Below, piece by piece: positions 4,235 through 30,154 of a DNA stretch of 36,252 nt. Source of the stretch: a virus; the IMG/VR virus record IMGVR_UViG_3300028177_000014, positions 1 through 36,252 of that record; one strand, 5' to 3'. The position numbers and the translations under genes are program-made. The notes beneath the pieces were generated by a model. The model ran no database searches, was not told the origin of the DNA, and worked only from the letters and a program-made list of their open reading frames with translations. The stretch's first letter is position 1; each line of letters begins with the position of its first letter.

Positions 4235-7200
4235 CTAGACCGTGATTGGTCCGGCGGCGGCGGATTCGTTTTCACCCAGGTCAACCGCAGTCACCCAGAA
4301 ATCCCCAACTTCCGTTGAAGAAACAAAGGATTGCGCAAAGGCGGCATCCCGAATTGTTGCGGCACCAAAGCCCGCACCAACCGCCCCCTTGTAAAGATTG
4401 AACTGCGTGATCTTCCAGGTTGCGGAATTGCTTGTGTCCCATCTGAAATTGTAAAGGTTCCCAAGATCGGTATTGGTGAAGTTCGTTGGAACGCTTGGCG
4501 CCGTTACCGTGAAAGCTTTTTCATAAGTGTTCACCGATTCATTCCCGGCGGTATCAACGGCCTTGATATGATAAATGAAATCCCCGGTTCCAAATGGCGT
4601 TTCAGAAAAGAAAGTTGCCGGGCCATCAAAAACAATATCGGCGGTTGCCCAGGTTGAAGCCCCATCCCCGCGCTTGAGAATATATCTTTCCACGTCGGCC
4701 GCTTGAACCGCGGTCCAATTGATCGAAACACTCAAAGCGGAAAGAGTAAAGTTGGCCGCAACAACATCATCCGGCGGCGTTCCCTTTCCGATAATCGTAT
4801 GAGGACCGAAAGCAACCCAACCGCTAACCTCTCCAAATCTAGTCATGTACCGAATGTATCCGGAATACTCAATGCCGGTTTCAACATCTGAAAAGATCAA
4901 TTCATTGTTGTCGGCGGAAGTGATCGGCGGAGATTCCCAACCGGACCCAGGGGAATCGGTTCTTCTGAAAAGAGCATGAAGAGTTTCCGCCGCCGCATTG
5001 GAGGCAATAGGCGGCCGCAAAACAACTTTCATTACAGCCCGAAAAGATCCATCAGAATCACGGATCATTACCGATTCATCTGAAATGATTTGATCAACAA
5101 CCGGATCCGGCGGCCTGATTCGTGGCGAAGACTTGGGAACTGTGATATTCGAAGTATAGGCCGGGATTCCACCGGAAACCGCATCATCCAAACCAGGATA
5201 CGCATGATCAACGCAATGAATCGTTGCGCCCAACTCTTCCTTGTAAACGATTTTCTCAACTACAAGTTCAATGGATTCGGAACCCTGTTCCCCAACCTGG
5301 GTAAGATCCCCATTCACAACAAGACCTTCATCCAAATCCGATGAAACTTCGAAGGTATCGTTGAAACCGCTTGCCAAAACTGTCACCGTGATAAGATTTG
5401 AATCCGCATCATCTTCACGGATCCGCATTGAATAGTTGGTTGCTATCAGGGTATCGATCTTTTGCACTAGTTGAATTTGAGTGACCTTGCCCCCGGCAAT
5501 AGTAAGCGCCTTTATCCGGCCCCAACCAAGACCAACTAGAATCACATCATGCGTAAAATGGATTAAATCACCCCTGGTACAAATCAGGTTTTCAACATCA
5601 GTTTCAAATTGGTGTCCTTCCGGCCGAAGCTTTGCTTCCGCAATATAGATTCTTCCAAGCGTCCAAACTTGATCCGGATCCGTGACCCCCCAAAGATCCA
5701 TATCCTCCAACTCGGTTGCATTGTTTTCAGTGTAGCCATCATCATAAACAATACGTTCGTCCATTTGGAAACCGGCGTTTTCGTTTTCAAAGCGGATCCG
5801 TAAGCCATGCGGGATCCTTTGAAATTTCTTTTGCCCGGAATAGTTGCGGGAATTTGCCGGCGTGAAGTGTTGAACAACAATGCTCTTTTCCTCATCAATC
5901 AAAACAGTGAATTTCCCATCAACGGAAATAAACTTTCCCCGGCCGGTTGCGGCTAAGTTTTGGCACACCTCAAAAAGCGGGCTAACCGTATCAATAACAA
6001 CATTTACGGCGTACCCCTTAGCGGTGCAATGATCGGCAAAAGCTTTGATTCCATCAAAATCAATCTTGCTTGCGGCAATGGTTCGCTTGAAAGCGTTGCC
6101 GGTGAGTGCATCCAAGATTGCCCAGCCAGGGTTGTTTGATCTGGCCCGGTTCAAGATTGCCGCCCCATCCCATGAAGGAAGCCGGGAACCAACCCGAATG
6201 TTCCCTTCGGTAATCAATCCATTTAATTGTTCCGTGATCTTGATACGCATCATCCAAAGCAACAACTTATTTGTATTGATAGGGTCGCTTGACTTGAAAA
6301 CCCTTATGGCGGTCAAGTACATCTCATCAATAATGCTTGTTGAAGTGGCGTCGGCCGTGACTCTTTTTACCCGGATATCATAGGCGCCTTCCGCTAACCC
6401 CTGCATTTCATAAGTTTTGCGAACCGTCGAAGATGACGCGGCGGTGATCGTTTTCTTTATGCTTCCGGCGGAAGTCATGAAATCATCATTGACCGGCGCC
6501 CCTGGCGTTGCATACCCGCCAACGAAATGAACACCGCCCAGGCTATCAGCCGCGGCCGCCATCCCATGCCGCCCCAAGGGAAACGGATCATTGGGCGTGA
6601 CAATAAAAGAACCGGAAAGCAAATCAATAATATAGGCTTCAATTACCGCGTTGCCGCTGGTTGCACTTGTGGCACCCCCGGCGTATAGAAGTTTTCGGCC
6701 GCCCAGGGGTACAACGCTTGGCCGGTATGTTGCGGTGTATTCCAATATTCTTTGGGTCCAAGTATAAATCCAAACCTTTGCACCACCGCCCAAATCCTCA
6801 TACTTCAATACCAAGTTTTGCATATCATCATTCATGGTTCCGTCAATATAGGATCCGCCGAACAGGTAAATATATTGTTGATCGGTTCCAACATCGCCTT
6901 CATCAACATGAGCTTCCGCGCCAATGTAGTTATCATCCGGGTAACTACCCTGAGTATAGAAATCAAAATCAATTGCATTGCCGGCGAAATCAACCAGAAA
7001 CATCGAATCCGCGCCGGGCTTGGCTGTCCCGTAACCATCCCGCCCACCGTAAACCGTGATGATATCTCCAACACTCGGCAAGTTTTGATGAAGCGCAACA
7101 TGATCTTTTCTTTGCTGGTTTGCGGAAAGAGCGAATCCGTCGGACCAAGAATCCAGAGCAATATCATAAATCCGAACAGTATCTTCCAAAAGAACGCTTG

Positions 7201-8812
7201 TTGTTGTTCCGCCAATACAATAAATTTTGTCATTGAAAAGAATTGCCCGGTGATGAGAAACGCCGGTTGCCCCTGGGTAATCTGCAATTGCTATCCATTG
7301 GCTCGTTGCAAAATCATACTTGTAACAAGCAACGGTGTTTGTTGCGCCGGTAGTAGTTCCAGAGATGACATACATCGCATTCGTTATCGGGTCATAAACG
7401 GAAGCGGCATTTGCAATATCGATTGGGTAATTGTCTCCGCTAACCGAAAGAACGCCGGAAGTGTCCACGAAGGGAACCCAGTTTGAACCGCCGGTTGGTG
7501 CTATCTCTAAATTGAATTCAACTGTTCGCGGTGTTCGTGCGCCGCTGGAATTGAAAGTTGCCAAACCTTTTGGGAAAGTAATATCAACGCTAACACCCCG
7601 CGCGGATCCCGCGCTTGTTCGAACGGTTGCGGCGTCAACTTCCCGAACAAGCACACTTAAGGCATCTTCTTCAATGTTCGGAATCCAAAACGCCTTATCT
7701 GTATCGGTAAGATCCCCCCACCTTGCGAACTTATGATTGATCCCGGAAAAGTTTTCAATTGCGGTTTCGCCTATCTTCACCTGATCAATTTCAAGATCGA
7801 ACAAACTGTTCGCATATCCAACGCCGAACACTACCCGCAAATATTGATCGTTATCAATGACCTCCGTCCATTCGTTTATCTTGTTGGGATAAAGAACCCT
7901 GGTTCCATAAATCTTTGAAAAAGGCCCATATGGGCTGAACTGGTTTGATATCCCGGTTGTTGAATGAACATCTGGATCTCTTGAAACTTGATGACGAACC
8001 GGCAATTGTGGCGGCGGCGCAAGTGAGCTAATCAATAGCCCGGCCCCGAAATTCACTATCCCGGAAGCAATCCTTGTGGATACTCCCAGGGTTCCGGCTA
8101 ATCCTTCCGCCAACGCCGGCCCCAGGGTAAGCAATGCGATTGTTGCGACGACTCCCAGAATATCCTTTGCGTCATCGCTCCCGGCTGGAAGTACCCGAAT
8201 GACAACCGATACCCCTGGGCGCGGCCGGCAATGATCATAGAATTGCGGCATAAGTGGATGCCCGTTCAAGGAAACGGAAACAAAGTGGTTTTCAATTCCC
8301 ATCTGCTCCAACACCTTCTTGATGGAACTTCCGGAAGACACAAAACGGAAACTTCGTTTTGACGAAAGGATCGGGTCAACCTGGGCGATAACCGGAACCA
8401 TCGTTTCAACAACTTCTCGATTCCGATAGTACCCCTCAATTCTCTTGTTCCATCGGATCGAATCCAAGCGCTCGGCCACTACATTACAACCCCGTTTTGA
8501 ATGGATGAAGTATCCATTATCAACGAAAATTCCGATATGCCCAGGAAGCCCATTAAAAGCGAAAAGTACAATATCGAACGGTAAGAGGTCATGCGGATCC
8601 GCGCCTACCCATCCCGGCCGTGACTCTTCAATTTTTCCGCTTATCGCCTTAATATCGCGGACTGATTTGTATTCAAGATGTTCCGGAAGCTCAATCCCCA
8701 ATTCACGTTGATACACCAAGCGGATCAAGCCCCAACAATCAACGCCGGATTCATCCCTTCCGAATTCTTTGAAAGGCAATCCGATATAACTATTTGCCCA
8801 ATCCTTTATCAT
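4235..8812 (-). CDS. Tail tip protein: NlpC/P60 + gpI/gpJ-like fusion with Kelch insert
   Basis: 1525 residues joining functions that are separate in lambda (K, I, J). Residues 1-135 are an NlpC/P60 peptidase: C26 in GVDCWGLI, H92 in GHIGIF and H104 in YFIHSK give the expected Cys-His-His set, probably for cutting peptidoglycan during DNA entry. Residues 137-210 are gpI-like (ubiquitin-like, SLNGHPLMP, RPGVSVVIRVLPAG), followed by a hydrophobic region at 215-265 ending ISSLAPPP, the usual start of the J-type hub. Residues 455-785 are six Kelch-like blades (YVISG, YCIGG, VYGG, LFGG, YAGG, FVGG) inserted in the J region. J-like sequence then resumes, and the last 190 residues contain two fibronectin-type-III-like repeats. 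The start follows a DUF1833 gene with a four-base overlap. Confidence 0.9.
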   Translation of the reverse strand: MIKDWANSYIGLPFKEFGRDESGVDCWGLIRLVYQRELGIELPEHLEYKSVRDIKAISGKIEESRPGWVGADPHDLLPFDIVLFAFNGLPGHIGIFVDNGYFIHSKRGCNVVAERLDSIRWNKRIEGYYRNREVVETMVPVIAQVDPILSSKRSFRFVSSGSSIKKVLEQMGIENHFVSVSLNGHPLMPQFYDHCRPRPGVSVVIRVLPAGSDDAKDILGVVATIALLTLGPALAEGLAGTLGVSTRIASGIVNFGAGLLISSLAPPPQLPVRHQVSRDPDVHSTTGISNQFSPYGPFSKIYGTRVLYPNKINEWTEVIDNDQYLRVVFGVGYANSLFDLEIDQVKIGETAIENFSGINHKFARWGDLTDTDKAFWIPNIEEDALSVLVREVDAATVRTSAGSARGVSVDITFPKGLATFNSSGARTPRTVEFNLEIAPTGGSNWVPFVDTSGVLSVSGDNYPIDIANAASVYDPITNAMYVISGTTTGATNTVACYKYDFATSQWIAIADYPGATGVSHHRAILFNDKIYCIGGTTTSVLLEDTVRIYDIALDSWSDGFALSANQQRKDHVALHQNLPSVGDIITVYGGRDGYGTAKPGADSMFLVDFAGNAIDFDFYTQGSYPDDNYIGAEAHVDEGDVGTDQQYIYLFGGSYIDGTMNDDMQNLVLKYEDLGGGAKVWIYTWTQRILEYTATYRPSVVPLGGRKLLYAGGATSATSGNAVIEAYIIDLLSGSFIVTPNDPFPLGRHGMAAAADSLGGVHFVGGYATPGAPVNDDFMTSAGSIKKTITAASSSTVRKTYEMQGLAEGAYDIRVKRVTADATSTSIIDEMYLTAIRVFKSSDPINTNKLLLWMMRIKITEQLNGLITEGNIRVGSRLPSWDGAAILNRARSNNPGWAILDALTGNAFKRTIAASKIDFDGIKAFADHCTAKGYAVNVVIDTVSPLFEVCQNLAATGRGKFISVDGKFTVLIDEEKSIVVQHFTPANSRNYSGQKKFQRIPHGLRIRFENENAGFQMDERIVYDDGYTENNATELEDMDLWGVTDPDQVWTLGRIYIAEAKLRPEGHQFETDVENLICTRGDLIHFTHDVILVGLGWGRIKALTIAGGKVTQIQLVQKIDTLIATNYSMRIREDDADSNLITVTVLASGFNDTFEVSSDLDEGLVVNGDLTQVGEQGSESIELVVEKIVYKEELGATIHCVDHAYPGLDDAVSGGIPAYTSNITVPKSSPRIRPPDPVVDQIISDESVMIRDSDGSFRAVMKVVLRPPIASNAAAETLHALFRRTDSPGSGWESPPITSADNNELIFSDVETGIEYSGYIRYMTRFGEVSGWVAFGPHTIIGKGTPPDDVVAANFTLSALSVSINWTAVQAADVERYILKRGDGASTWATADIVFDGPATFFSETPFGTGDFIYHIKAVDTAGNESVNTYEKAFTVTAPSVPTNFTNTDLGNLYNFRWDTSNSATWKITQFNLYKGAVGAGFGAATIRDAAFAQSFVSSTEVGDFWVTAVDLGENESAAAGPITV

Positions 8813-11620: not shown

Positions 11621-12176
11621 TACCTTTTCCCTTTTCCCCTCTTCGTTGCTTTTTCTATTGCTTTATCTTTTAAGGTAAACCATTCATACCAAAGAAACAA
11701 TTCCGAATAAGGGATTGCGCCAAGTTCACAAAGGGTTTTGCCAAGCCTGTCACCAACAAACAATTGCGCCCGCAAGAGCGCGTCAGACTCTATTTTTTTT
11801 TAGGGCTTGGCTCGGATTTCTTGGTTGGTGCTATATAGGCATAGGCCGCGGATCCAAGGGTTGTAACAAATGAGGAAGCGGGCGCCGCTTTGAGGGATTC
11901 CAAATCCCCAACCTCATAAACCTTTTCTTCTGTCCCTGGAACATAAGTGCAAAGGATCAAGGCCCAAACGTGAAGTTCCCCGGTGTTGGGTAGCACGCCC
12001 TTTTCAATCTTTCCGTCCGGGTATCCTTTCCGAAGGATTTCATGGGCATCCGCAACGGTAGGTTCCCGAATCTCAAAATCAACGCCGTCGAATTCAACGA
12101 TCTTAGAGCGGAAGGTTTTCTTGGATCCAACCGTTTTTGCTCTGAGCTTATCGCGTAGGTTTTCGGGTTTACTCAT
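11620..12176 (-). CDS. Tail assembly chaperone GT fusion via -1 frameshift
   Basis: Predicted long form of 185 residues: 128 residues in the 0 frame, a -1 slip on the A run at 11793-11801, then 57 residues (IESDALLRAQLFVGDRLG at the start, YSELFLWYEW in the middle) to a TAA at 11620-11622. The extension has the PYSEL--W motif common in gpT-type tails, and its stop overlaps the tape measure ATG as TAATG, so the whole gap between the two genes is coding. In lambda the G/GT ratio set by this slip matters for tail assembly. The 171-base extension has no start codon with a ribosome binding site of its own, which favours the fusion over a separate gene. Confidence 0.8.
11790..12176 (-). CDS. Tail assembly chaperone, short form (gpG-like)
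   Basis: 128 residues, the 0-frame product directly upstream of the tape measure gene. It has the helical, charged make-up of gpG-type chaperones (EFDGVDFEIREPTVADA, then a WALILCTYVP helix) and ends SPKKK at a run of nine A bases followed at once by TAG. Such chaperones bind the tape measure during tail assembly and are not expected in the finished virion. The stop sits directly on a slippery run, and the -1 frame beyond it is open up to the tape measure start, so a longer fusion is also made. The ATG overlaps the stop of the upstream tube gene. Confidence 0.85.
   Translation of the reverse strand: MSKPENLRDKLRAKTVGSKKTFRSKIVEFDGVDFEIREPTVADAHEILRKGYPDGKIEKGVLPNTGELHVWALILCTYVPGTEEKVYEVGDLESLKAAPASSFVTTLGSAAYAYIAPTKKSEPSPKKK
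11793..11801 (-). promoter_or_regulatory. Slippery A9 sequence for -1 ribosomal frameshift
   Basis: On the minus strand the codons read CCT AAA AAA AAA TAG. A slip of one base back on the last lysine codons avoids the TAG and enters the gpT-like frame. The position, just before the tape measure gene, is where nearly all long-tailed phages carry such a site. A downstream stimulating hairpin was not identified with confidence. Confidence 0.8.
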
Positions 12177-12787
12177 TATAGAAAGGCAAAATCCGCATTC
12201 GGGATTCCGGCGCCATCAAGAGCAAATGATACTTCTTCATCTTCGATCCCGTCAATATCCCCGCTCCATCCAACATCAGGAATTACCATCCAAGCGCGCA
12301 TAATTGGATCCGCGCCCCCTGGCTTTATTTCGAAAACCAAGGGTAAGCGCGCCAAGAGGGACGCAATGAAAAAACCATTAGCCCAATTCAAACGAAGGGT
12401 TGCGGATACATCAATGAGGCCAATGACGCGGGATCTGTAGCCGGCATCACCAAACGCGGTATCGTCTAGCTCCGTTGCCGTAAGCTCAACCGAAAATTCC
12501 TTTCCGGTTGCGACAACTGTCATTGGAATATATTTCCCGGAAATTGTAACAACACCCCCAGGCGGCGCGGGCAATGTTACCGAGCCATCAAGATAGTTTA
12601 TTTCATCGGGAACAACGGGAACCCCGCCATCTTCTACAACTGGAACGGTTGCCCGATCAAAGATTTGTTTTGTTGCGTCCGTGACTTGATAAACATTGCC
12701 GCTCGTATTGGTCGTTGCTTCATCCGTAAACGTGGTTGCGGTCCCCGGTTGCTTGATTGCGGTATTATAAGAAGCTGTCCCCGTCAT
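12176..12787 (-). CDS. Tail tube protein paralogue 2 (203 residues)
   Basis: Begins MTGTASYNTAIKQP and shares an MTGTA-Y--IK start and the segment ELDDTAFGDAGYRSRVIGLID with the 142-residue protein just upstream, so the two come from a duplication. It has an added N-terminal region of about 80 residues (beta-rich, with YLDGSVTLPAPPGGVVTISG). The core resembles tail tube proteins of the lambda V type. It may be the second ring type of the tube, a tail terminator-proximal ring, or the tube protein itself. It is coupled to the chaperone gene by an overlapping stop and start. Confidence 0.7.
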   Translation of the reverse strand: MTGTASYNTAIKQPGTATTFTDEATTNTSGNVYQVTDATKQIFDRATVPVVEDGGVPVVPDEINYLDGSVTLPAPPGGVVTISGKYIPMTVVATGKEFSVELTATELDDTAFGDAGYRSRVIGLIDVSATLRLNWANGFFIASLLARLPLVFEIKPGGADPIMRAWMVIPDVGWSGDIDGIEDEEVSFALDGAGIPNADFAFL

Positions 12788-12790
12788 GGC

Positions 12791-13219
12791 TTAGGCCGGC
12801 GGATCGGACGCCGCCGCAGTCACCGCGCCATCCCCTTTTAGTTCAAATGACACAACTTCTTTTCCATCGACTCCGCCGGCTTGCTTGTAATTCAAGATCT
12901 TGCATGGAATATCAAAGCCATCAGCCAAGACGCCAGAAGGAAGATATTGAAAATAAGTTGTTGCCCTGGCTAAGAACTGAGAACGAACCGTTGCAAGCGC
13001 AGTATTCAGCGCGCCGCCGGTAATCATGTATTCACAAGTCACAGAAAGGCCGGAATCCAAAAGGCCCATGATTCTTGACCGAACCCCCGCATCCAAAGAG
13101 GACGTATCATCCAATTCGGCCGCCTCAAGATCAAGGTTTCCATCGGCTTGCGGCAACTCTAGCCAGTTTGCCCCATCGGATACTTTTATCTTTTTCCCAT
13201 ATGCCGCGGTTCCAGTCAT
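12791..13219 (-). CDS. Tail tube (major tail) protein paralogue 1
   Basis: 142 residues: MTGTAAYGKKIKVSDG, then LDLEAAELDDTSSLDAGVRSRIMGLLDSG, then a beta-rich core ending VSFELKGDGAV. This layout is usual for siphovirus tail tube subunits that stack as hexamers around the tape measure. It lies between a DUF3168 tail completion gene and the second tube paralogue, in the expected place. Which of the two paralogues builds most of the tube cannot be told from sequence; this one is closer in length to compact tube proteins. Confidence 0.75.
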   Translation of the reverse strand: MTGTAAYGKKIKVSDGANWLELPQADGNLDLEAAELDDTSSLDAGVRSRIMGLLDSGLSVTCEYMITGGALNTALATVRSQFLARATTYFQYLPSGVLADGFDIPCKILNYKQAGGVDGKEVVSFELKGDGAVTAAASDPPA

Positions 13220-13228
13220 TACCGCCCC

Positions 13229-13618
13229 CTATTGTTCAAAAAACGCCAAGAAATCATTTGATGTTTGATAAGCATCTTCGTCATCGTCGTAAAAATGCTG
13301 TCGATTGTTCATCATAATTGCCTGTATTATTAGCCCGTCAATAGTTCCATTGTATCCATCAAGCGAAATTCTTACAAGTTCGGAAACTACATTTGCCGAT
13401 TCCCTGGAAGCCGCGAATACATCAACATCGATTCCGGCCTTTGGTAAATCATCAACCCCGCCCGCAATTGGATTGTGAGTTTCCGAGGTAAGAACAATAC
13501 GGATTGCGGGATATTCAACATTTTGAGGAAGCTTGTCCGGATAAATCCTATTGGAGACTTTCGCCACAACATCAGCATCATTTGAAAGCAAGGAAAAGAA
13601 AGCTTCATCTATTGTCAT
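13229..13618 (-). CDS. DUF3168-like tail completion/terminator protein
   Basis: 129 residues from the ATG at 13618, chosen because it overlaps the preceding stop (ATGA) and is preceded by AAGGGA. An upstream in-frame ATG at 13717 lies inside the previous gene. The opening IDEAFFSLLSNDADVVAKV-NRIYPDKLPQNVEYPAI fits the DUF3168 family (SPP1 gp17-like), which caps the tail tube at the neck. The central VDVFAASRESANVVSEL helix also fits. It stands between the HK97 gp10-like and tail tube genes, the normal order. Confidence 0.78.
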   Translation of the reverse strand: MTIDEAFFSLLSNDADVVAKVSNRIYPDKLPQNVEYPAIRIVLTSETHNPIAGGVDDLPKAGIDVDVFAASRESANVVSELVRISLDGYNGTIDGLIIQAIMMNNRQHFYDDDEDAYQTSNDFLAFFEQ

Positions 13619-14088
13619 CGTTTTCCCTTGGCTTCCAACTTTCGGATATGCTTTCCAATACGGATCCGCATTTCTTCGGAAAAGATCCGCATTGACGCGC
13701 CCTTGTTTGCTTGCCAAGCCGGGCGCACAAAAGGCCGCTTTTCATGTTGCTTGGATCCGTATTCAAAAAAGATTCCATAATAGTTTTCAGACCTTGGGCC
13801 AACGATAATTATCACCGGCGCATTCTTCCCGCGCTTGCCCATCTTCAAAGACTTGATAATGATTCCGCGAGATAACGGCCGCTTGACGACTTTCCCGCGC
13901 ACTTTGGTTTTGTGCTTCGCGGCCTTGGGCGCCCGGATCTGGATTCCCTCTTTCACGGGCTTTGCTGATTTTCTTAATGAAGTCCTAAGCGCTGAACGCG
14001 GCAACCCTTCCGGAATATCTCCCAGGTTGGCAAGAACCGTTTTCAATCCAATGATATCCGGATCGCGGGCAAATCCAAGGTCACTCAC
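13615..14088 (-). CDS. HK97 gp10-like neck/tail connector protein
   Basis: 157 residues, very basic. The N-terminal half has LKTVLANLGDIPEGLPRSALRTSLRKSAKPVKEGIQIRAP in pieces typical of HK97 gp10 family proteins, and the C-terminal half has the hallmark YYGIFFEYGSKQHEKRPFVRPAW. These proteins act at the head-tail joint. It overlaps both neighbours by four bases. Confidence 0.82.
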   Translation of the reverse strand: MSDLGFARDPDIIGLKTVLANLGDIPEGLPRSALRTSLRKSAKPVKEGIQIRAPKAAKHKTKVRGKVVKRPLSRGIIIKSLKMGKRGKNAPVIIIVGPRSENYYGIFFEYGSKQHEKRPFVRPAWQANKGASMRIFSEEMRIRIGKHIRKLEAKGKR

Positions 14089-14408
14089 AATTGAACCTCT
14101 TTACAATGGATCTCAATCCTTTCATGCTTTTCTTCTACATCAATTGTATTCTTGATCTCGAAAATGCGGGTTCCATAAAGAATTCTTTGCTTTACCGAAA
14201 GCCCTGGGATAAATCGAATGATAACAACGTGGGAAATCTCGGATACCAATTGAGCGGAAGTGAATATTTGCTTGGCGGTTCTTGGCTCAACCCCGGCATA
14301 TACAGTTCTGAAATGCACCCAGGTTATAACTTCGCCACCGGCGGCGCCTTTCGCAACCACCGGGCTTTGAATTATTACCCTATGTTTTAACCTTCCCGCT
14401 CGTATCAT
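14085..14408 (-). CDS. Head closure / head-tail adaptor protein (gp16/gp7-like)
   Basis: 107 residues with the pattern of SPP1 gp16-type head closure proteins: MIRAGRLKHRVIIQSP, WVHFRTVYAGVEPRTAKQ, then a VVIIRFIPGLSVKQRI segment and a final IEIHCKEV strand. It forms a ring beneath the connector and closes the filled head. The stop overlaps the gp10-like start, and its ATG overlaps the connector stop by one base. Confidence 0.85.
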   Translation of the reverse strand: MIRAGRLKHRVIIQSPVVAKGAAGGEVITWVHFRTVYAGVEPRTAKQIFTSAQLVSEISHVVIIRFIPGLSVKQRILYGTRIFEIKNTIDVEEKHERIEIHCKEVQL

Positions 14409-15340
14409 CAGTATGGAATTTCATAACTTTTATAAACCGCTAACGTGGCATCTGGAATCCTGGAAGAAGGAACACCGAAGAGAAGAAACCCTTCCCGGTT
14501 CTCATACATGAAACCCAAGTGCGCTAACATAGCTTGTTTGATTGGCGCCGGAACATCGGCCGGATTGCCATAGCCCGCAATGAATTCTATTTCAATCGGG
14601 TTCAATACCCCGCTTGTTCTGACACTCGGCCAACCTTCACCATAAGCCGGAAGAATCGCTTCCCGCCCTGGCCTAGTGCCAACAACATACTTTGCCGAAT
14701 CCCAGGTTTGGAGAACGCCATTAGTATCAATGTATTTTACGGAAGTAATTGATTGCAAAGGCGCCCTTGGAATTATCAATCCGGTCCCCGAACTATCTGG
14801 AAAAGCTTTTGGATAGTAAGTCAAAGTCTGAGTGATCAAGGCCCGTCCGGTATGCTTTTCTGCCTGAGTTCTTACATTCTCAATCAAAAGAGTAAGTTGT
14901 GGATCCAAGGTTGAATTGATTGCCGGGATATCCGCGCCCAGGTTCGCATCGGAAATATTATCTTGATAAGTGGTTGCGGTGTTATCGGCTACCGTGGCAA
15001 CCAATTTGAAAACGGATCCACCGGCGGCGGTCCGGTATACCTTCCGGCCTGTTACCAGGGAACCCCCAATTGGAAGCGTGATATCTGCCTTGCCCTGGCC
15101 GGCGTCGGTTGTAAGAACTTCGGAACCTGGGCTTCCGGTTGTTTCACCGTCGGCCGTTTGAAAAGTGATTTTCCATTGGTGCGCCCCGTTGTCTACGTTC
15201 CCGGCTTCGGCAACAAGCGCAACGGTTGGAAGTGGCGGCGCGGGTTCACCGTCTGTTAGATCAAGACGCCGATCCCGCTTTACCTCTTCGATTGTGAGCG
15301 GTTCCAGCGCCGGGCCTGTTTCTACCTCGACACTGAACAT
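14408..15340 (-). CDS. Head-tail connector (HK97 gp6-like) with inserted Ig-like domain
   Basis: 310 residues. The ends match gp6-type connectors: ALEPLTIEEVKRDRRLD at the start, then from about residue 146 DPQLTLLIENVRTQAEKHTGRALITQTL, PRAPLQSITSVKYID, EIEFIAGYGNPADVPAPIKQAML. Between them, residues of about 38-144 form an extra beta-sandwich-like domain with GAHQWKITFQTADGETTGSPG and VTGRKVYRTAAGG, a type frequent in phage fibre and adhesin proteins. Without it the protein would be close to 200 residues, the usual connector length. The extra domain probably sticks out from the neck ring and may bind a surface or a neck fibre. Confidence 0.85.
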   Translation of the reverse strand: MFSVEVETGPALEPLTIEEVKRDRRLDLTDGEPAPPLPTVALVAEAGNVDNGAHQWKITFQTADGETTGSPGSEVLTTDAGQGKADITLPIGGSLVTGRKVYRTAAGGSVFKLVATVADNTATTYQDNISDANLGADIPAINSTLDPQLTLLIENVRTQAEKHTGRALITQTLTYYPKAFPDSSGTGLIIPRAPLQSITSVKYIDTNGVLQTWDSAKYVVGTRPGREAILPAYGEGWPSVRTSGVLNPIEIEFIAGYGNPADVPAPIKQAMLAHLGFMYENREGFLLFGVPSSRIPDATLAVYKSYEIPY

Positions 15341-15345
15341 ACTTT

Positions 15346-15654
15346 TTACCCCTCATCAAATACGGTTCCGCGTAACTCTTCCCCGCCGTCTTCCGGCTCT
15401 TTGGGTTCATCCTTCGGCTTGTCCTTGGCTTTCGCCTTCGGCTTGTCCTTGGGCTTCTCTTCTTCGTCCGGATCCGCGGCCTTTCTCTTCGCTCTATCTT
15501 TCTCGCCCTTGGTAAGTTCTTTTGTCTCTTCCGCTTGTACGGATTTACAAAGTTGTTTCCCAAGTTTTTGATCAACAATGGCGACTTGCCCAGGCCCAAT
15601 TGTTAGTTCGGGCGTGTTCAAGCGCCCGAATACTTTGATTCGCATTGTTTTCAT
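15346..15654 (-). CDS. Small protein with charged disordered tail
   Basis: 102 residues, not recognised. The first 50 residues form a compact beta-rich part (RIKVFGRLNTPELTIGPGQVAIVDQKLGKQL). The rest is low-complexity: repeated KPKDKPKAKAKDKPK followed by acidic residues ending GTVFDEG. The repeat is visible in the DNA as recurring ggcttgtccttg. It is placed between the possible decoration protein and the connector, so a minor head protein is likely, by context. Confidence 0.6.
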   Translation of the reverse strand: MKTMRIKVFGRLNTPELTIGPGQVAIVDQKLGKQLCKSVQAEETKELTKGEKDRAKRKAADPDEEEKPKDKPKAKAKDKPKDEPKEPEDGGEELRGTVFDEG

Positions 15655-15684: not shown

Positions 15685-16122
15685 TTAGGAAGGGGAAATT
15701 AAGCTAAGGGAATTTATCAGGTCGGCCGACTGTGTTACCGGCTCAATCCTCCCCTTGTACTGAATTGCGATGATCGCGGCCAAGGTTGCATTTGCCGTAC
15801 CAATGACTGATTCTGCGCGAATGTATCGCTTGAGCGGCCGATATACATCAAGCCCCAAAAGTTTATCATCCGCATCGGCGGCCCCGGCGGTGAAGGTTGC
15901 GTTTCCATCGGTGAGCTCGGCGGCATCAGACATATCCGATTGGCCCCCCTCTTGAGCTTTCAAAGTGATAACAGAAGTATCATCAACATCATCAAACTTT
16001 GCCAAGAAAAGAACCCCGTCAAATCCCTGCATATCCAGGGTTGCGCCCTGGACGGTTGCCTGTCCGTCGGCCTGGGCGCCCAGGGAAACACTTATTTTTG
16101 CGCTTTTTAGTAAACCTTGCAT
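15685..16122 (-). CDS. Putative head decoration or minor structural protein
   Basis: 145 residues, one gene after the capsid protein. It has ATLDMQGFDGVLFLAKF near residue 30 and DVYRPLKRYIRAESV near residue 95, a pattern seen in small phage virion proteins encoded between capsid and connector genes. There is no signal or membrane segment. The role is inferred from position and general resemblance; decoration of the capsid surface is the most likely option. Confidence 0.55.
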   Translation of the reverse strand: MQGLLKSAKISVSLGAQADGQATVQGATLDMQGFDGVLFLAKFDDVDDTSVITLKAQEGGQSDMSDAAELTDGNATFTAGAADADDKLLGLDVYRPLKRYIRAESVIGTANATLAAIIAIQYKGRIEPVTQSADLINSLSLISPS

Positions 16123-16186: not shown

Positions 16187-17428
16187 TTATGCCGCGCCCA
16201 TTTTTCCGCGCTTGAATGCTTCCGAAAGCACGGGTTGCCCGTCAAACTTCATACGGCCAATATAGCCCGTTTGGTTGTTCTCCGCGTAAAGCTCGGAAAG
16301 AACTTGGATGACAACCTCTTGACTCATTCCAAACCAATAATGGGATAAGTCACCGAACATATACACATAAGCATTTGCGGCGATTGTATTGGGCATATAT
16401 TCAGAAAGAATGATTTCTTTCCCTAAAAGAGTTTCAGGGTCATCAATTTTGGTATTGGGTTCCCAAATGAATTTGTCTTCACCATCGGTAATCCTGGCAA
16501 TATGGGAAAGAATGTCCCGGTGCATTTGCCAAGTTGCTGTAGGCCAATACCCTTCTTTCAACCCATGCTTTGCTCTCATCAGGTTTTTGAAGTCAATTAG
16601 TGCGGCGGTATTGTCGGTTGCAATATCCCGATCCGTATCAATTCCATCGGCGCTTGCTACCATGAAGCCCAGTGGCTCCAGCGCGCCGGATCCGTTTATG
16701 ATCTTGTTTTCCTGAACTGCTTTGAACTTATAGCCAAGGCGCTCATTGACAAGAGCTTCTGGATTCATAACGGCAATTCTCAAGAGTTCATTGGAAACCT
16801 TGATTCTCTTGGCCGCTGGATGCGGAGTGATTCGCCTCTTCTGGAATCCCATTGCGGAATCATCTGATCCGGTTCCTAGTTCCGGAGTCATTTCTGCATC
16901 GTCTGGATCCGCGGTAAGCTCGGCTACTCCGTAGGAATCGGCGGTTGTAGGCGGAAGGGTTCGAACCGCATCTTTCAACCTGAAAGAGTTATCAATGAAC
17001 TTGATGAGTTCGGGAAGGAATTCTTCGGGCATGATCAATGCGCCACCGGCGGCAACGTCATCAGAAGAAAGAGCGCGTTGATTGTCACCCTTGAAAACCA
17101 TTGAACGGAATTCCTCTTGGGAAACTTCGTTTCTTCCACCAATCAAATAGCGGCGAAAGATTTTTTTACGCTGTTCCTTGGGATCATCATTCTTGCCATC
17201 TTTTCGAAGATCATCTTCAAGCTCAAAAGCTTTGCGATTCATGGACCGCTCATTTTCAACCTGGGCGCGTTCGCGCTGAATCTCTTCGACAACAACCCCG
17301 ATCCGAGTATGATTCTCATCAATCTTTTTATTCTCGGCCGCGCCGCGGTTTTCTTGCCCCATTAGGCGCCGGGTATCTTTGGTCAAAGTTACACTTTCCG
17401 CGATGAGTTCCCGTAATTTCTGACTCAT
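16187..17428 (-). CDS. Major capsid protein, HK97 fold
   Basis: 413 residues. About the first 100 are highly charged and helical (delta-domain type, internal scaffold), ending near NQRALSSDD, a plausible place for protease cleavage. The rest follows the HK97 family: GGALIMPEEFLPELIKFID, RLKDAVRTLP, PAAKRIKVSNELL, ERLGYKFKAVQENKIINGSG, then the P-domain and the YWFGMSQEVVIQV strand. It builds the icosahedral shell. A strong AAGGGG site precedes the ATG, which overlaps the protease stop as ATGA; both fit high-level coupled expression. The start at 17428 is well supported. Confidence 0.95.
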   Translation of the reverse strand: MSQKLRELIAESVTLTKDTRRLMGQENRGAAENKKIDENHTRIGVVVEEIQRERAQVENERSMNRKAFELEDDLRKDGKNDDPKEQRKKIFRRYLIGGRNEVSQEEFRSMVFKGDNQRALSSDDVAAGGALIMPEEFLPELIKFIDNSFRLKDAVRTLPPTTADSYGVAELTADPDDAEMTPELGTGSDDSAMGFQKRRITPHPAAKRIKVSNELLRIAVMNPEALVNERLGYKFKAVQENKIINGSGALEPLGFMVASADGIDTDRDIATDNTAALIDFKNLMRAKHGLKEGYWPTATWQMHRDILSHIARITDGEDKFIWEPNTKIDDPETLLGKEIILSEYMPNTIAANAYVYMFGDLSHYWFGMSQEVVIQVLSELYAENNQTGYIGRMKFDGQPVLSEAFKRGKMGAA

Positions 17429-18392: not shown

Positions 18393-19664
18393 TCATTCTT
18401 CCGAATCTTTGGCAATTTCATCTTTCATGGAATTTGCAGTTTCTACATCAACCATATTCAGGGGAACATAATACTTTTGACCCAGGCCATCCGGAATGGG
18501 ATTCATTTCTTCAAGCTCCCTGATTTCATCTTGATTGATAGCCCCCATGTTGAAGAGAATTTTGTAAAATTCGGCGCGGGCTTTGGAGTCACCCCGAAGA
18601 ATTCCTTCGAATCGAAGCTTTGCATACATTCCTTCGATCCGTTCTTTGCGAGTAAGCAAAGACCAATTGACCTCTTGTTCCATTCTGCGAACCCAGGGAA
18701 GCATTGTTTCGGTCAAGAATTCGATTGCTTGTTGTTCAATGTTCGCCTTGATGGACCTTTCAAGATCCCCAACTTTGTATCCTGGGATTCTCCACATTGC
18801 CGCAACTTGGCCGCGGGTATACTTTCTTGCCATCAACCATTCACTATCTGCCGGTGAAACGGAAATTGGTTTGAATGATGCCCCGCCTTCAAGAACCGCC
18901 GTTTTGTGCTTGTTCTGCAATCCGGAATAGTTCTCTTGCCACTTTCGCCGGAATTCTTCGCGGTTTTCTGGTCCGCCCAGGGTTCCGGGAATCTCCAAAA
19001 CTCCGCCCGGTGTTGCATCGCTTGTGAAGTGGCGGTTTCCATATTCTCGCAACGCCAATGATGCACCGATGGTTTCCCTGGCGTGTTCAATCCGGTTCAT
19101 TCCTTCAATGCCGTCCAAGCTTATATCCGTGAAGTGAACAATTTCTTCTCGATTAAAAATCAATAATCGGCCGGCGGTGTCCCGGTGCGCGAATGCTTTG
19201 TGACCATCTTCCCCGCGGAAGGCTCTTGTTCTATCTGGATCCAGGGGAACCAATGATTCAACCGGGTTGCCCGCATTGTAATTCACGGCCAAATAAGAAC
19301 GGCCGCGTAACGCCGTAACAAATCCAATGTATTCAAAAAGCTGAACGGCGCTTTGATCTGGATTAGGCCGAAGCGTCAAGAGTTCCCAAAGTGGATGACT
19401 GCGTACCTTTCTAGCAACTCCAAGAGAATTCTTTTGAAGAATTTGCCAAGGGAATATACCCAAGGTTTCGCCAATAATCCGGCAACAAGTCATCACCGCT
19501 TCCTCTTCCATAGAAGTCTTCGGCGTGACCTTGATTCCCGTTGTTGACTGCCCAGGGGAACCGAACACCTTAACGATTCCCGGATCCTTTGGATGACTAA
19601 GATCTACCGCACCGGAAGCCCTTTCTTCGGGATCCTTTTTGAATAAAAAACTTAATAGGCCCAT
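18393..19664 (-). CDS. Portal protein, HK97 family
   Basis: 423 residues, near the 424 of the HK97 portal. Motifs include the first-segment VKVTPKTSMEEEAVMTCCRIIGETLG, HPLWELLTLRPN, SYLAVNYNAGNPVESLVPLDPDR, EIVHFTDISLDGIEGMN, and the ARKYTRGQVAAMWRIP--VGDLE segment common in this family. Twelve copies form the ring through which DNA enters and leaves and where the terminase docks. A 35-base gap separates it from the protease gene. No strong ribosome binding site precedes the ATG at 19664. Confidence 0.93.
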   Translation of the reverse strand: MGLLSFLFKKDPEERASGAVDLSHPKDPGIVKVFGSPGQSTTGIKVTPKTSMEEEAVMTCCRIIGETLGIFPWQILQKNSLGVARKVRSHPLWELLTLRPNPDQSAVQLFEYIGFVTALRGRSYLAVNYNAGNPVESLVPLDPDRTRAFRGEDGHKAFAHRDTAGRLLIFNREEIVHFTDISLDGIEGMNRIEHARETIGASLALREYGNRHFTSDATPGGVLEIPGTLGGPENREEFRRKWQENYSGLQNKHKTAVLEGGASFKPISVSPADSEWLMARKYTRGQVAAMWRIPGYKVGDLERSIKANIEQQAIEFLTETMLPWVRRMEQEVNWSLLTRKERIEGMYAKLRFEGILRGDSKARAEFYKILFNMGAINQDEIRELEEMNPIPDGLGQKYYVPLNMVDVETANSMKDEIAKDSEE

Positions 19665-28701: not shown

Positions 28702-28911
28702 ATGTCACAAAAAACCATTGAATTTCAAAGCCGATGTTCTGAGTTCTTCGAAAATGTTTCCAATGAAGAACTAAACCTATTCTATTCCTTCCTCATTGCC
28801 CAAATGGAAATCGAAGGTCAAGAGGAACTGGTTTATCATTTAATGGATCTTGCAACGGATCCGGTTTTCAAAAGGAAGTTTTTAGAAAATGGAAATCGAA
28901 ACACTCATTGA
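28702..28911 (+). CDS. Small helical protein, unknown function
   Basis: 69 residues from the ATG at 28702; a GTG at 28690 in the same frame is possible and neither has a good ribosome binding site. Acidic and helical (ECFENVSNEELNLFYSFLIAQME-like composition), with QEELVYHLMDLATDPVFKRKFLE at the end. It overlaps the nuclease start by 23 bases. Not recognised; a partner of the nuclease is possible by position. Confidence 0.55.
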   Translation: MSQKTIEFQSRCSEFFENVSNEELNLFYSFLIAQMEIEGQEELVYHLMDLATDPVFKRKFLENGNRNTH

Positions 28912-29713
28912 AGGATTGATTGACGATCTTTACGAAATCAACAAGGCCGACTTTGCCAAGCCGAAAGGCTTAGGCCCCTCATGGATCGGTCATCCTTGCG
29001 GCCGGTATATCTGGATGAAATGGCGCGGCTTTGATGCCGGGAACCCGTTTGATTATCGTGATCGCCTGGGCATGATATTCAAAACCGGATCCCTTCTTGA
29101 AAAGCTAATCCTGGATTCACTCATGGAGGCCGGGTACAAAATCAAACAATCCCAAGATTGGATCCGCCTACAATCCATTGCCGGAAAGATTGACGGGATT
29201 CTAGTTGAAAGCGGGCTTGAATATCTCATTGAAGTGAAGAGTGCGAATGATCGGATCTTTGATTTGGTTGTTTCCAAAGGAGTTAAAAAAGGAAAACAGG
29301 CTTGGTATGCCCAGGCTCAACTGTACCTTAGAGCGAAGAAAAAAGAACTTGGACTTCTAATACTAATCAACAAGAACAACGCCAAGATCCACATTGAATT
29401 GATCCGGTACAACACCAAAGACGCGAGTACCTTTCAAAGACGGGCCATTGCAATTAAAAACTCTCCCGAATTACCTGAAATGATATCGGAAGATCAAAAG
29501 CACAGTGAATGCTATTTTTGTGAATTCAAGCTCCCTTGTTCCAGCCCTTCTGGATTTCATCAAGTGAAAAAGAATTGTGGAACTTGCGTTTCCTTTGAAG
29601 GCGAAACAATGATTTGTAACAACCAAAAGAACTTGGAGCTATTTGATGAGCGGCCGGTAATCAAAGACCATAGAAAGAAATGTAAGCGTTGGGACTATCT
29701 CTTTTCCAAATAG
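28889..29713 (+). CDS. RecB/Cas4-like PD-(D/E)XK nuclease with probable Fe-S cluster
   Basis: 274 residues. The nuclease core shows AGKIDGIL (D102) and YLIEVKSA (E115, K117), then a QAWYAQAQLYLRAKK helix, the PD-(D/E)XK order of RecB-family exonucleases. Four cysteines are placed as in Cas4/AddB-type Fe-S nucleases: C37 before the core and C208, C211, C217 after it. A further CGTC and C follow near residues 230-243 and may hold zinc. It probably makes 3' single strands for the Sak4/SSB pair. It lies after an internal terminator in the same operon. Confidence 0.85.
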   Translation: MEIETLIEGLIDDLYEINKADFAKPKGLGPSWIGHPCGRYIWMKWRGFDAGNPFDYRDRLGMIFKTGSLLEKLILDSLMEAGYKIKQSQDWIRLQSIAGKIDGILVESGLEYLIEVKSANDRIFDLVVSKGVKKGKQAWYAQAQLYLRAKKKELGLLILINKNNAKIHIELIRYNTKDASTFQRRAIAIKNSPELPEMISEDQKHSECYFCEFKLPCSSPSGFHQVKKNCGTCVSFEGETMICNNQKNLELFDERPVIKDHRKKCKRWDYLFSK

Positions 29714-29725
29714 AAAGACTCACCT

Positions 29726-30154
29726 ATGAACATTTGTTTGAAGTGTAAAAAGTCCGCGTCTCTTTGCAAGTGCCGCAAGATGCAACGGCCGAAACAATTA
29801 AAATATAGAAACGAAGAAACCAAGGGCTTTGCATCCAAGAAAGAAGAAGGCCGGCACAAAGAACTTCTTCTTCGTGAACACGCCGGCTTGATATCCCGCC
29901 TAGAAATCCAGCCCGTTTTCATTCTCATGGAAGGATTCCGGGATTTGCGCGCCGGGATAACAAAAGATGGAAAGGCAAAAGCGGTTGCGCCAATCAAATA
30001 CATTGCGGACTTCAAATACTTAGAGCATGGGATAACCTGGGTTGTTGAAGATGTCAAAAGCCCGGCCACTAGAAAGAATTCTTTATATAGGGTCAAGATC
30101 CGTTTATTCCTGGCGAATGAGAAGTTTAAGAAGCTAGATTTTAGGGAAATATGA
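29726..30154 (+). CDS. DUF1064-family nuclease with N-terminal zinc motif
   Basis: 142 residues. FASKKEEGRHKELLLREHAGLISRLEIQPVF fits in pieces the start of DUF1064, a phage family related to PD-(D/E)XK nucleases; IKYIADFKYL (D95) and WVVEDVKSPATRKNSLYRVK (D109, K111) complete the active site. The first 16 residues carry CLKC and CKC, a likely zinc site not needed for the fold. It may resolve recombination junctions or cut branched DNA. The stop overlaps the next ATG. Confidence 0.8.
   Translation: MNICLKCKKSASLCKCRKMQRPKQLKYRNEETKGFASKKEEGRHKELLLREHAGLISRLEIQPVFILMEGFRDLRAGITKDGKAKAVAPIKYIADFKYLEHGITWVVEDVKSPATRKNSLYRVKIRLFLANEKFKKLDFREI

Follow-up and report, generated by a model that had tools for sequence, protein, structure and literature searches.

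The closest described relatives of the protein considered here are the RcGTA adaptor Rcc01688 (6TE8/6TBA/6TOA) and the head-tail connectors of the TIGR02215/phrog_442 families. The RcGTA adaptor is a dodecamer with a ring diameter of 143 Å, and its β domain has a role in capsid attachment (PMC7296036). In SPP1 gp15, helix α0 bridges the α1 helices of neighbouring subunits at the periphery of the connector and swings about 145° on assembly, mutations in the interface block channel closure, and gp15-like proteins vary in the loop between α0 and α1 (PMC9701221). The adaptor of roseophage R4C, likewise a dodecamer, has a peripheral ring of 12 immunoglobulin-like (Ig-like) domains that touches the capsid (PMC10276861). 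The authors of the Milano study recognized four classes of neck 1 proteins, none of which has a domain in the α0-α1 loop. Here we analyse an IMG/VR virus record of 36,252 bases (IMGVR_UViG_3300028177_000014; this entire stretch is the window), in which a gp6-like head-tail connector carries an additional β-sandwich domain at exactly that place.

The window connector shares with the RcGTA/TIGR02215 connectors the order of its core elements (α0, α1, β attachment region, helices, C-terminal hook) and its gene neighbours (head closure, Neck1, terminator), but those proteins have nothing inserted between α0 and α1. We found no published description of an α0-α1 insertion in the open-access literature, subscription papers lying outside the search. 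Peripheral Ig-like adaptor domains were thus already known from R4C; new are this position and this domain family. The connector and its parts are as follows.

14408..15340, minus strand: gp6-like head-tail connector (adaptor) of 310 amino acids with the inserted domain (TIGR02215, phrog_442, AlphaFold2 model)
15272..15292, minus strand: helix α0, residues 17-23, which borders the insertion site upstream (model secondary structure; alignment to insert-free homologues)
14906..15259, minus strand: whole insertion with linkers, residues about 28-145, net about 114 amino acids (alignment, spacing statistics)
14915..15229, minus strand: the inserted Ig-like β-sandwich proper, residues 38-142 (AlphaFold2 model of the segment alone; structural matches)
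14849..14905, minus strand: helix α1, residues 146-164, which borders the insertion site downstream (model; conserved D146, E161, T164 and R166)
14576..14830, minus strand: β region corresponding to the capsid-attachment domain of RcGTA, residues 171-255 (model strands; RcGTA adaptor profile, E 1.8e-21)
14426..14548, minus strand: helix α2, an adaptor loop that putatively faces the stopper (residues 288-296, modelled with lower confidence) and C-terminal helix (model)

A domain is inserted between helix α0 and helix α1 of the connector

The assignment of the protein to the gp6-like connectors comes from its sequence, its modelled fold and the position of its gene. It matches TIGR02215 with 77.9 bits (cut-off 39) over residues 148-283 and phrog_442 with an E value of 6.8e-21 over residues 142-295; both matches are confined to residues 142-295. 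The AlphaFold2 (AF2) model of the whole protein, built on a 72-sequence alignment, has a predicted local distance difference test score (pLDDT) of 91.6, with helices at residues 17-23, 146-164, 265-287 and 297-305, and its core resembles the RcGTA adaptor chains with structural Z scores of 17.5-17.7 over 173-185 residues. A profile of the core likewise covers positions 6-191 of the RcGTA adaptor sequence (E 1.8e-21). The gene follows that of the capsid and immediately precedes the genes for head closure, Neck1 and terminator.

The insertion sits exactly between helix α0 and helix α1. In all 11 INPHARED phage connectors that we aligned, residues about 36-147 of the window connector are unmatched; the α0 region of these insert-free proteins aligns with residues 1-35 and their α1 with residues 146 onward. 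We also surveyed the spacing between the α0 motif and α1 in gp6-like loci that a short conserved motif picked out in IMG/VR (the best 80 of 531) and in 42 loci from GTDB genomes. The distance is sharply bimodal, falling either at 22 residues (24-30 in a few loci) or in the range 136-145; it is 136 in the window, compared to 22 in ordinary homologues, which corresponds to a net gain of about 114 amino acids. Most of the IMG/VR and GTDB relatives of the connector are without the insert. A linker of 10 residues precedes the folded part.

These results agree with the original prediction, made from the sequence alone, that an extra domain follows the first helix of a gp6-like connector. Its peptides (GAHQWKITF, GETTGSPG) lie in frame inside the 310-residue open reading frame (ORF) at 14408-15340 (minus strand), and the interval that it gave, 14909-15229 (residues 38-144), is correct for the folded part, the whole insertion with its linkers being longer (28-145). 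The search for gp6 homologues with and without the segment, which it had proposed, shows that ordinary homologues lack it, and the possibility that the segment belongs to the connector core is ruled out by the models of the full protein and of the segment alone, in both of which it folds separately. Neither an assembly artefact nor a chance or mis-called frame accounts for the insertion: an identical copy is present on a second IMG/VR contig (3300028174_000114), and dozens of independent relatives with 41-51% identity carry the domain in frame with a low ratio of nonsynonymous to synonymous substitution rates (dN/dS, or ω). An intein was set aside, without a dedicated search, as the sequence has no feature that supports one.

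The inserted domain is modelled as an Ig-like β-sandwich

Within the AF2 model of the full protein the insert has a pLDDT of about 90, and modelled alone it reaches a pLDDT of 93.7 and a predicted template modelling score of 0.86, in keeping with an independently folding domain. It is modelled as a β-sandwich of 8-9 strands, eight of them between residues 39 and 127 in the full-protein model. The nearest solved structure is the SPO1 major capsid protein (9VEL, residues 288-401; Z 9.9), followed by the muzzle protein of crAss001 (7QOK/7QOL, residues 171-293; Z 9.4-9.6); the insert thus resembles surface domains of other virion proteins. Residues 163-292 of the crAss001 muzzle are the published immunoglobulin-like domain IG1 (PMC10172136). 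Like the window insert, IG1 is an inserted domain of a virion protein, but the proteins that carry the matching domains are a tail nozzle/muzzle and a major capsid protein rather than an adaptor, and the identity is about 18-20%.

Classical Ig and Fn3 domains resemble the insert at Z scores of 3-4 only. Pfam gave no convincing family match for the inserted segment; at E ≤ 1, neither the segment nor any of 20 homologues matched an Ig, Fn3 or Big family. Since the matched region of the crAss001 muzzle is published as IG1, we consider the label ‘Ig-like β-sandwich’ to be a fair description of the modelled domain, which the original prediction had called Ig-like, though its sequence lies outside every Pfam Ig family.

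The insert differs in position from other adaptor domains

The R4C adaptor (vBDshSR4C_004) is the nearest parallel, since both are siphophage adaptors, presumably dodecameric in the window, in which each subunit bears a single Ig-like domain, at the neck periphery in R4C and probably so in the window. However, the R4C domain is N-terminal and replaces the β attachment region, whereas the window insert follows α0 and the β region is retained. There is no detectable sequence relation between the two (hhalign probability 0.2 for the insert; BLAST E 0.87 for the whole protein), and we reject the idea that they are the same domain. The Milano adaptor similarly has a β-sandwich on the periphery of its ring, beyond the helical core; however, that sandwich (residues 51-140) corresponds to a region that the window core already has, to which the insert adds a further domain in a different place. 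Such an architecture falls into none of the four published classes of neck 1 proteins.

These adaptors suggest one function for the insert, that of a brace in which the Ig-like domains pack on the major capsid protein round the portal vertex, where they take up the mismatch between 12-fold and 5-fold symmetry. The twelve Ig-like domains of the R4C adaptor touch the capsid (PMC10276861), the β domains of the RcGTA and Milano adaptors bind it, and the insert of the window connector is strongly constrained, with conserved loops and a conserved linker that are specific to connectors. However, the window connector already retains an RcGTA-type β attachment region, close relatives manage without the insert, and the chain topology would put the N-terminus of α1 at the opposite end of the helical bundle from the β region. 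We regard a brace as the main rival to the interpretation that we favour below, possible but the less probable of the two.

The SU10/T7-type podophage adaptors (PF24175) also combine an adaptor ring with an extra domain. The window connector has no Pfam match, and so none to PF24175 SU10_adaptor, but one such adaptor (L016:2602-3585; PF24175 E 1.1e-16) contains the same Ig-like domain family. There the domain follows the second helix, in the β/fibre-dock region, whereas in the window it is in the α0-α1 loop. This is a second, parallel case of the domain being inserted into a protein of the neck ring. This bears on the idea that the domain anchors a collar or fibre protein, as the original prediction proposed in calling it a neck whisker that holds fibres. 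SU10/T7 adaptors dock fibres on their extra domain, the XM1 collar-spike protein gp40 attaches to the neck via an Ig-like N-terminal domain, and the SU10-type adaptor just described has the same domain family in its β region. However, in 15 insert-bearing records the domain occurs once per record and no fibre partner shares it. A fibre dock thus finds little support, and we consider it improbable.

Unrelated domains occupy the same loop

Exactly the same α0-α1 loop holds three inserts unrelated to the Ig-like domain in connectors of other phages. In one connector (L067:2489-3445), residues about 35-141 belong to phrog_5707 (E 3.8e-13), which is also the family of a stand-alone gene of the window, two genes upstream of the connector.

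15685..16122, minus strand: putative capsid decoration protein gene (phrog_5707, E 1.7e-6)

The phrog_5707 family profile matches the PDB entry 8cjz_B (‘Capsid Decoration Protein’, E 1.4e-5) and has a weak match to the BPP-1 cementing protein 3j4u_H (E 0.029). This capsid-decoration-related fold at the site of the insert is a further point in favour of a brace. The other two inserts, of about 75 and 50 amino acids (L056:2177-2974 and L057:2510-3253/L059), differ from each other and are without a family match. Because this loop takes unrelated inserts in different phages, one of them from a family related to decoration or cement proteins, it is a modular display site.

The insert is patchily distributed and strongly conserved

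We compared the history of the insert with that of the core that carries it. In a tree of the core built without the insert, its presence needs 14 changes, at least 4 of them forced by supported forks, and so a single origin followed by vertical descent is rejected, although the tree rests on 159 columns and its support is thin. Cores that are 64-67% identical are found both with and without the insert, and the window core is about equally close to insert-free and insert-bearing connectors. In a tree of the domain itself, the connector copies, including that of the window, form one clade (support 99/98) apart from the fibre copies. A recent swap from a tail fibre is therefore rejected, although not absolutely, since the branch of the window insert is long; both a deletion and a ‘TTDAGxGK’ motif are common to this insert and two of the fibre copies (L014/L015). 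Residues conserved specifically in the connector copies are D64, G92-G93 and the linker L-G-A..P..N-T-T-D.

The insert is the best conserved part of the protein, with a mean pairwise identity of 69%, compared to 47% for the β region and 34% for the C-terminal helices. The median ω is 0.11 for the insert and 0.17 for the core, and dN is lower in the insert than in the core in 78 of 92 pairs, which are not independent. Purifying selection thus acts more strongly on the insert than on the connector core. Since it is patchy on the core tree yet has a low ω and high conservation, the insert is a selected but dispensable module.

The patchiness, with its repeated gain or loss, the relatives at 64-67% identity that do without the insert and the different domains at the same site would all fit a mobile passenger, spread by recombination and tolerated without a selected virion function. 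But a neutral passenger should hardly show a dN/dS of about 0.1, below that of the core, nor conserved linkers and connector-specific residues, and we find this explanation quite unlikely.

The insert is found in connectors of uncultivated phages

A search of IMG/VR with the insert alone returned 235 relatives, and among the best 80 of these, which we examined for the protein that carries the domain, all were in connectors (79 by profile, and one truncated ORF, L148, by inspection). In total, we collected at least 85 distinct connectors with the insert, from uncultivated phages. The original prediction had regarded such a domain as uncommon in the connector; given this number, it is not odd for this lineage, and R4C provides a precedent. 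Among isolated phages, no insert-bearing connector was found in 50,697 records (E 1e-5 for the whole connector, 1e-3 for the insert); the remote matches were to major tail proteins of Arthrobacter phages and to Rhizobium phage structural proteins.

Copies of the domain outside connectors occur in long repetitive fibre-like proteins (L014, L015, L221, L227, L246 and L269). One Acidobacteria metagenome-assembled genome has an insert-bearing connector (L097); apart from it, no connector with the insert was found in 396 genomes of the Acidobacteria phylum. Acidobacteriota genomes also have copies of the Ig-like domain in three non-connector proteins, encoded by ORFs of 247 (L300), 897 (L305) and 537 (L309) amino acids, the last of which looks by eye like a podophage nozzle/stabilisation protein.

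Genes around the connector

The connector gene is part of a minus-strand module of siphophage type that contains genes for the terminase subunits, portal, protease, HK97-fold capsid protein, putative decoration protein, a charged 102-residue protein, connector, head closure, Neck1, terminator, major tail proteins, chaperone, tape measure and a large gpJ-like tail-tip protein. Four of these genes are the following.

14085..14408, minus strand: head closure Hc1/stopper, the immediate partner gene (PF05521 E 3.8e-25; phrog_25 E 1e-26)
13615..14088, minus strand: tail completion/Neck1, HK97 gp10-like (phrog_5 E 4.5e-15)
16187..17428, minus strand: HK97-fold major capsid protein (PF05065 E 5.6e-45)
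18393..19664, minus strand: portal protein, the docking ring for the connector (PF04860 E 8.7e-83)

The stopper-facing role of the connector loop at residues 288-296 is putative and is assigned from R4C and RcGTA. The 102-residue protein directly upstream of the connector (15346-15654, minus strand) has no convincing family, and its C-terminal half is highly charged and rich in Lys, Asp, Glu and Pro. Two adjacent genes (12176-12787 and 12791-13219, minus strand) encode related proteins resembling major tail proteins, with 36% identity over 109 columns (E 1e-10), the longer having about 70 additional N-terminal residues. An ORF of 1525 amino acids (4235-8812, minus strand), with an N-terminal NlpC/P60 domain, a kelch-type β-propeller (about residues 463-767) and gpJ-like FNIII parts, apparently combines tail-tip peptidase, propeller and central fibre. 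On the plus strand, a Cas4-domain exonuclease gene (28889-29713; phrog_1990 E 1.7e-44) adjoins a Holliday junction resolvase gene (29726-30154).

Possible role of the domain on the neck

By analogy with its solved homologues, the window connector would assemble as a 12-mer on the portal. Because α0 is peripheral in SPP1 and the RcGTA and R4C adaptors are dodecameric, twelve outward-facing copies of the insert on the neck exterior are likely. If the RcGTA ring diameter of 143 Å applies, we estimate a circumference of about 37 Å per subunit, which would leave room for an Ig domain. The original prediction had presented 12 Ig-like domains on a connector ring as unusual; the peripheral position is supported by the comparison with SPP1 (PMC9701221), but R4C provides a precedent for the arrangement (PMC10276861).

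We favour, with moderate confidence, the interpretation that this is a standard RcGTA/TIGR02215 adaptor with an Ig-like cassette between α0 and α1, which acts as a module that decorates and stabilises the neck surface, adheres weakly to glycans, or both. The α0-α1 loop would be a fixed site at which phages of this group gain, lose and swap surface domains, while the helical core of the adaptor keeps bridging portal and stopper. Each of the twelve subunits would expose a single Ig-like domain on the outer face of the neck, immediately below the portal vertex, forming a belt of twelve, probably outside the essential gate. This belt may decorate and stabilise the surface of the neck and capsid vertex, adhere weakly to cell-surface glycans, or do both. 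The proposed function is modelled on that of Ig-like domains carried by capsid and tail-tube proteins of other phages; in phage Douge, the Ig-like domains of the capsid and tail tube bind mycobacterial glycans (PMC13033339). We prefer decoration or adhesion because of the patchy distribution of the insert, its exchange with surface-type domains and the glycan binding in Douge. Binding of host surface material, which the original prediction named as the alternative to holding fibres, may be a role of the insert.

Three points weigh against this interpretation. The radial position and exposure of the insert are derived from SPP1 and RcGTA; the proline-containing linkers and the conserved D64, G92-G93 and LGA..P..N.T.D could indicate rigid packing on a neighbour or on the capsid, which would favour a brace; and no glycan-binding signature was found in the insert. 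A domain hung on α0 could also report on or tune closure of the connector, because in SPP1 this helix swings on assembly and interface mutations block closure.

The decorating or adhering cassette that we favour makes one question testable: does the neck ring serve for display and adhesion, or for bracing the portal vertex? In this family, a core neck protein that is normally minimal acts as a modular platform, with the same loop taking at least four different inserts and one of these under stronger selection than the connector itself. More tentatively, the loop might be a general plug-in site that displays twelve interchangeable domains (Ig-like, capsid-decoration-like and others) round the neck, with the Ig-like version as a dedicated neck adhesin. 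If so, this loop would give phages a third surface for display, in addition to capsid decoration and the Ig domains of the tail tube.
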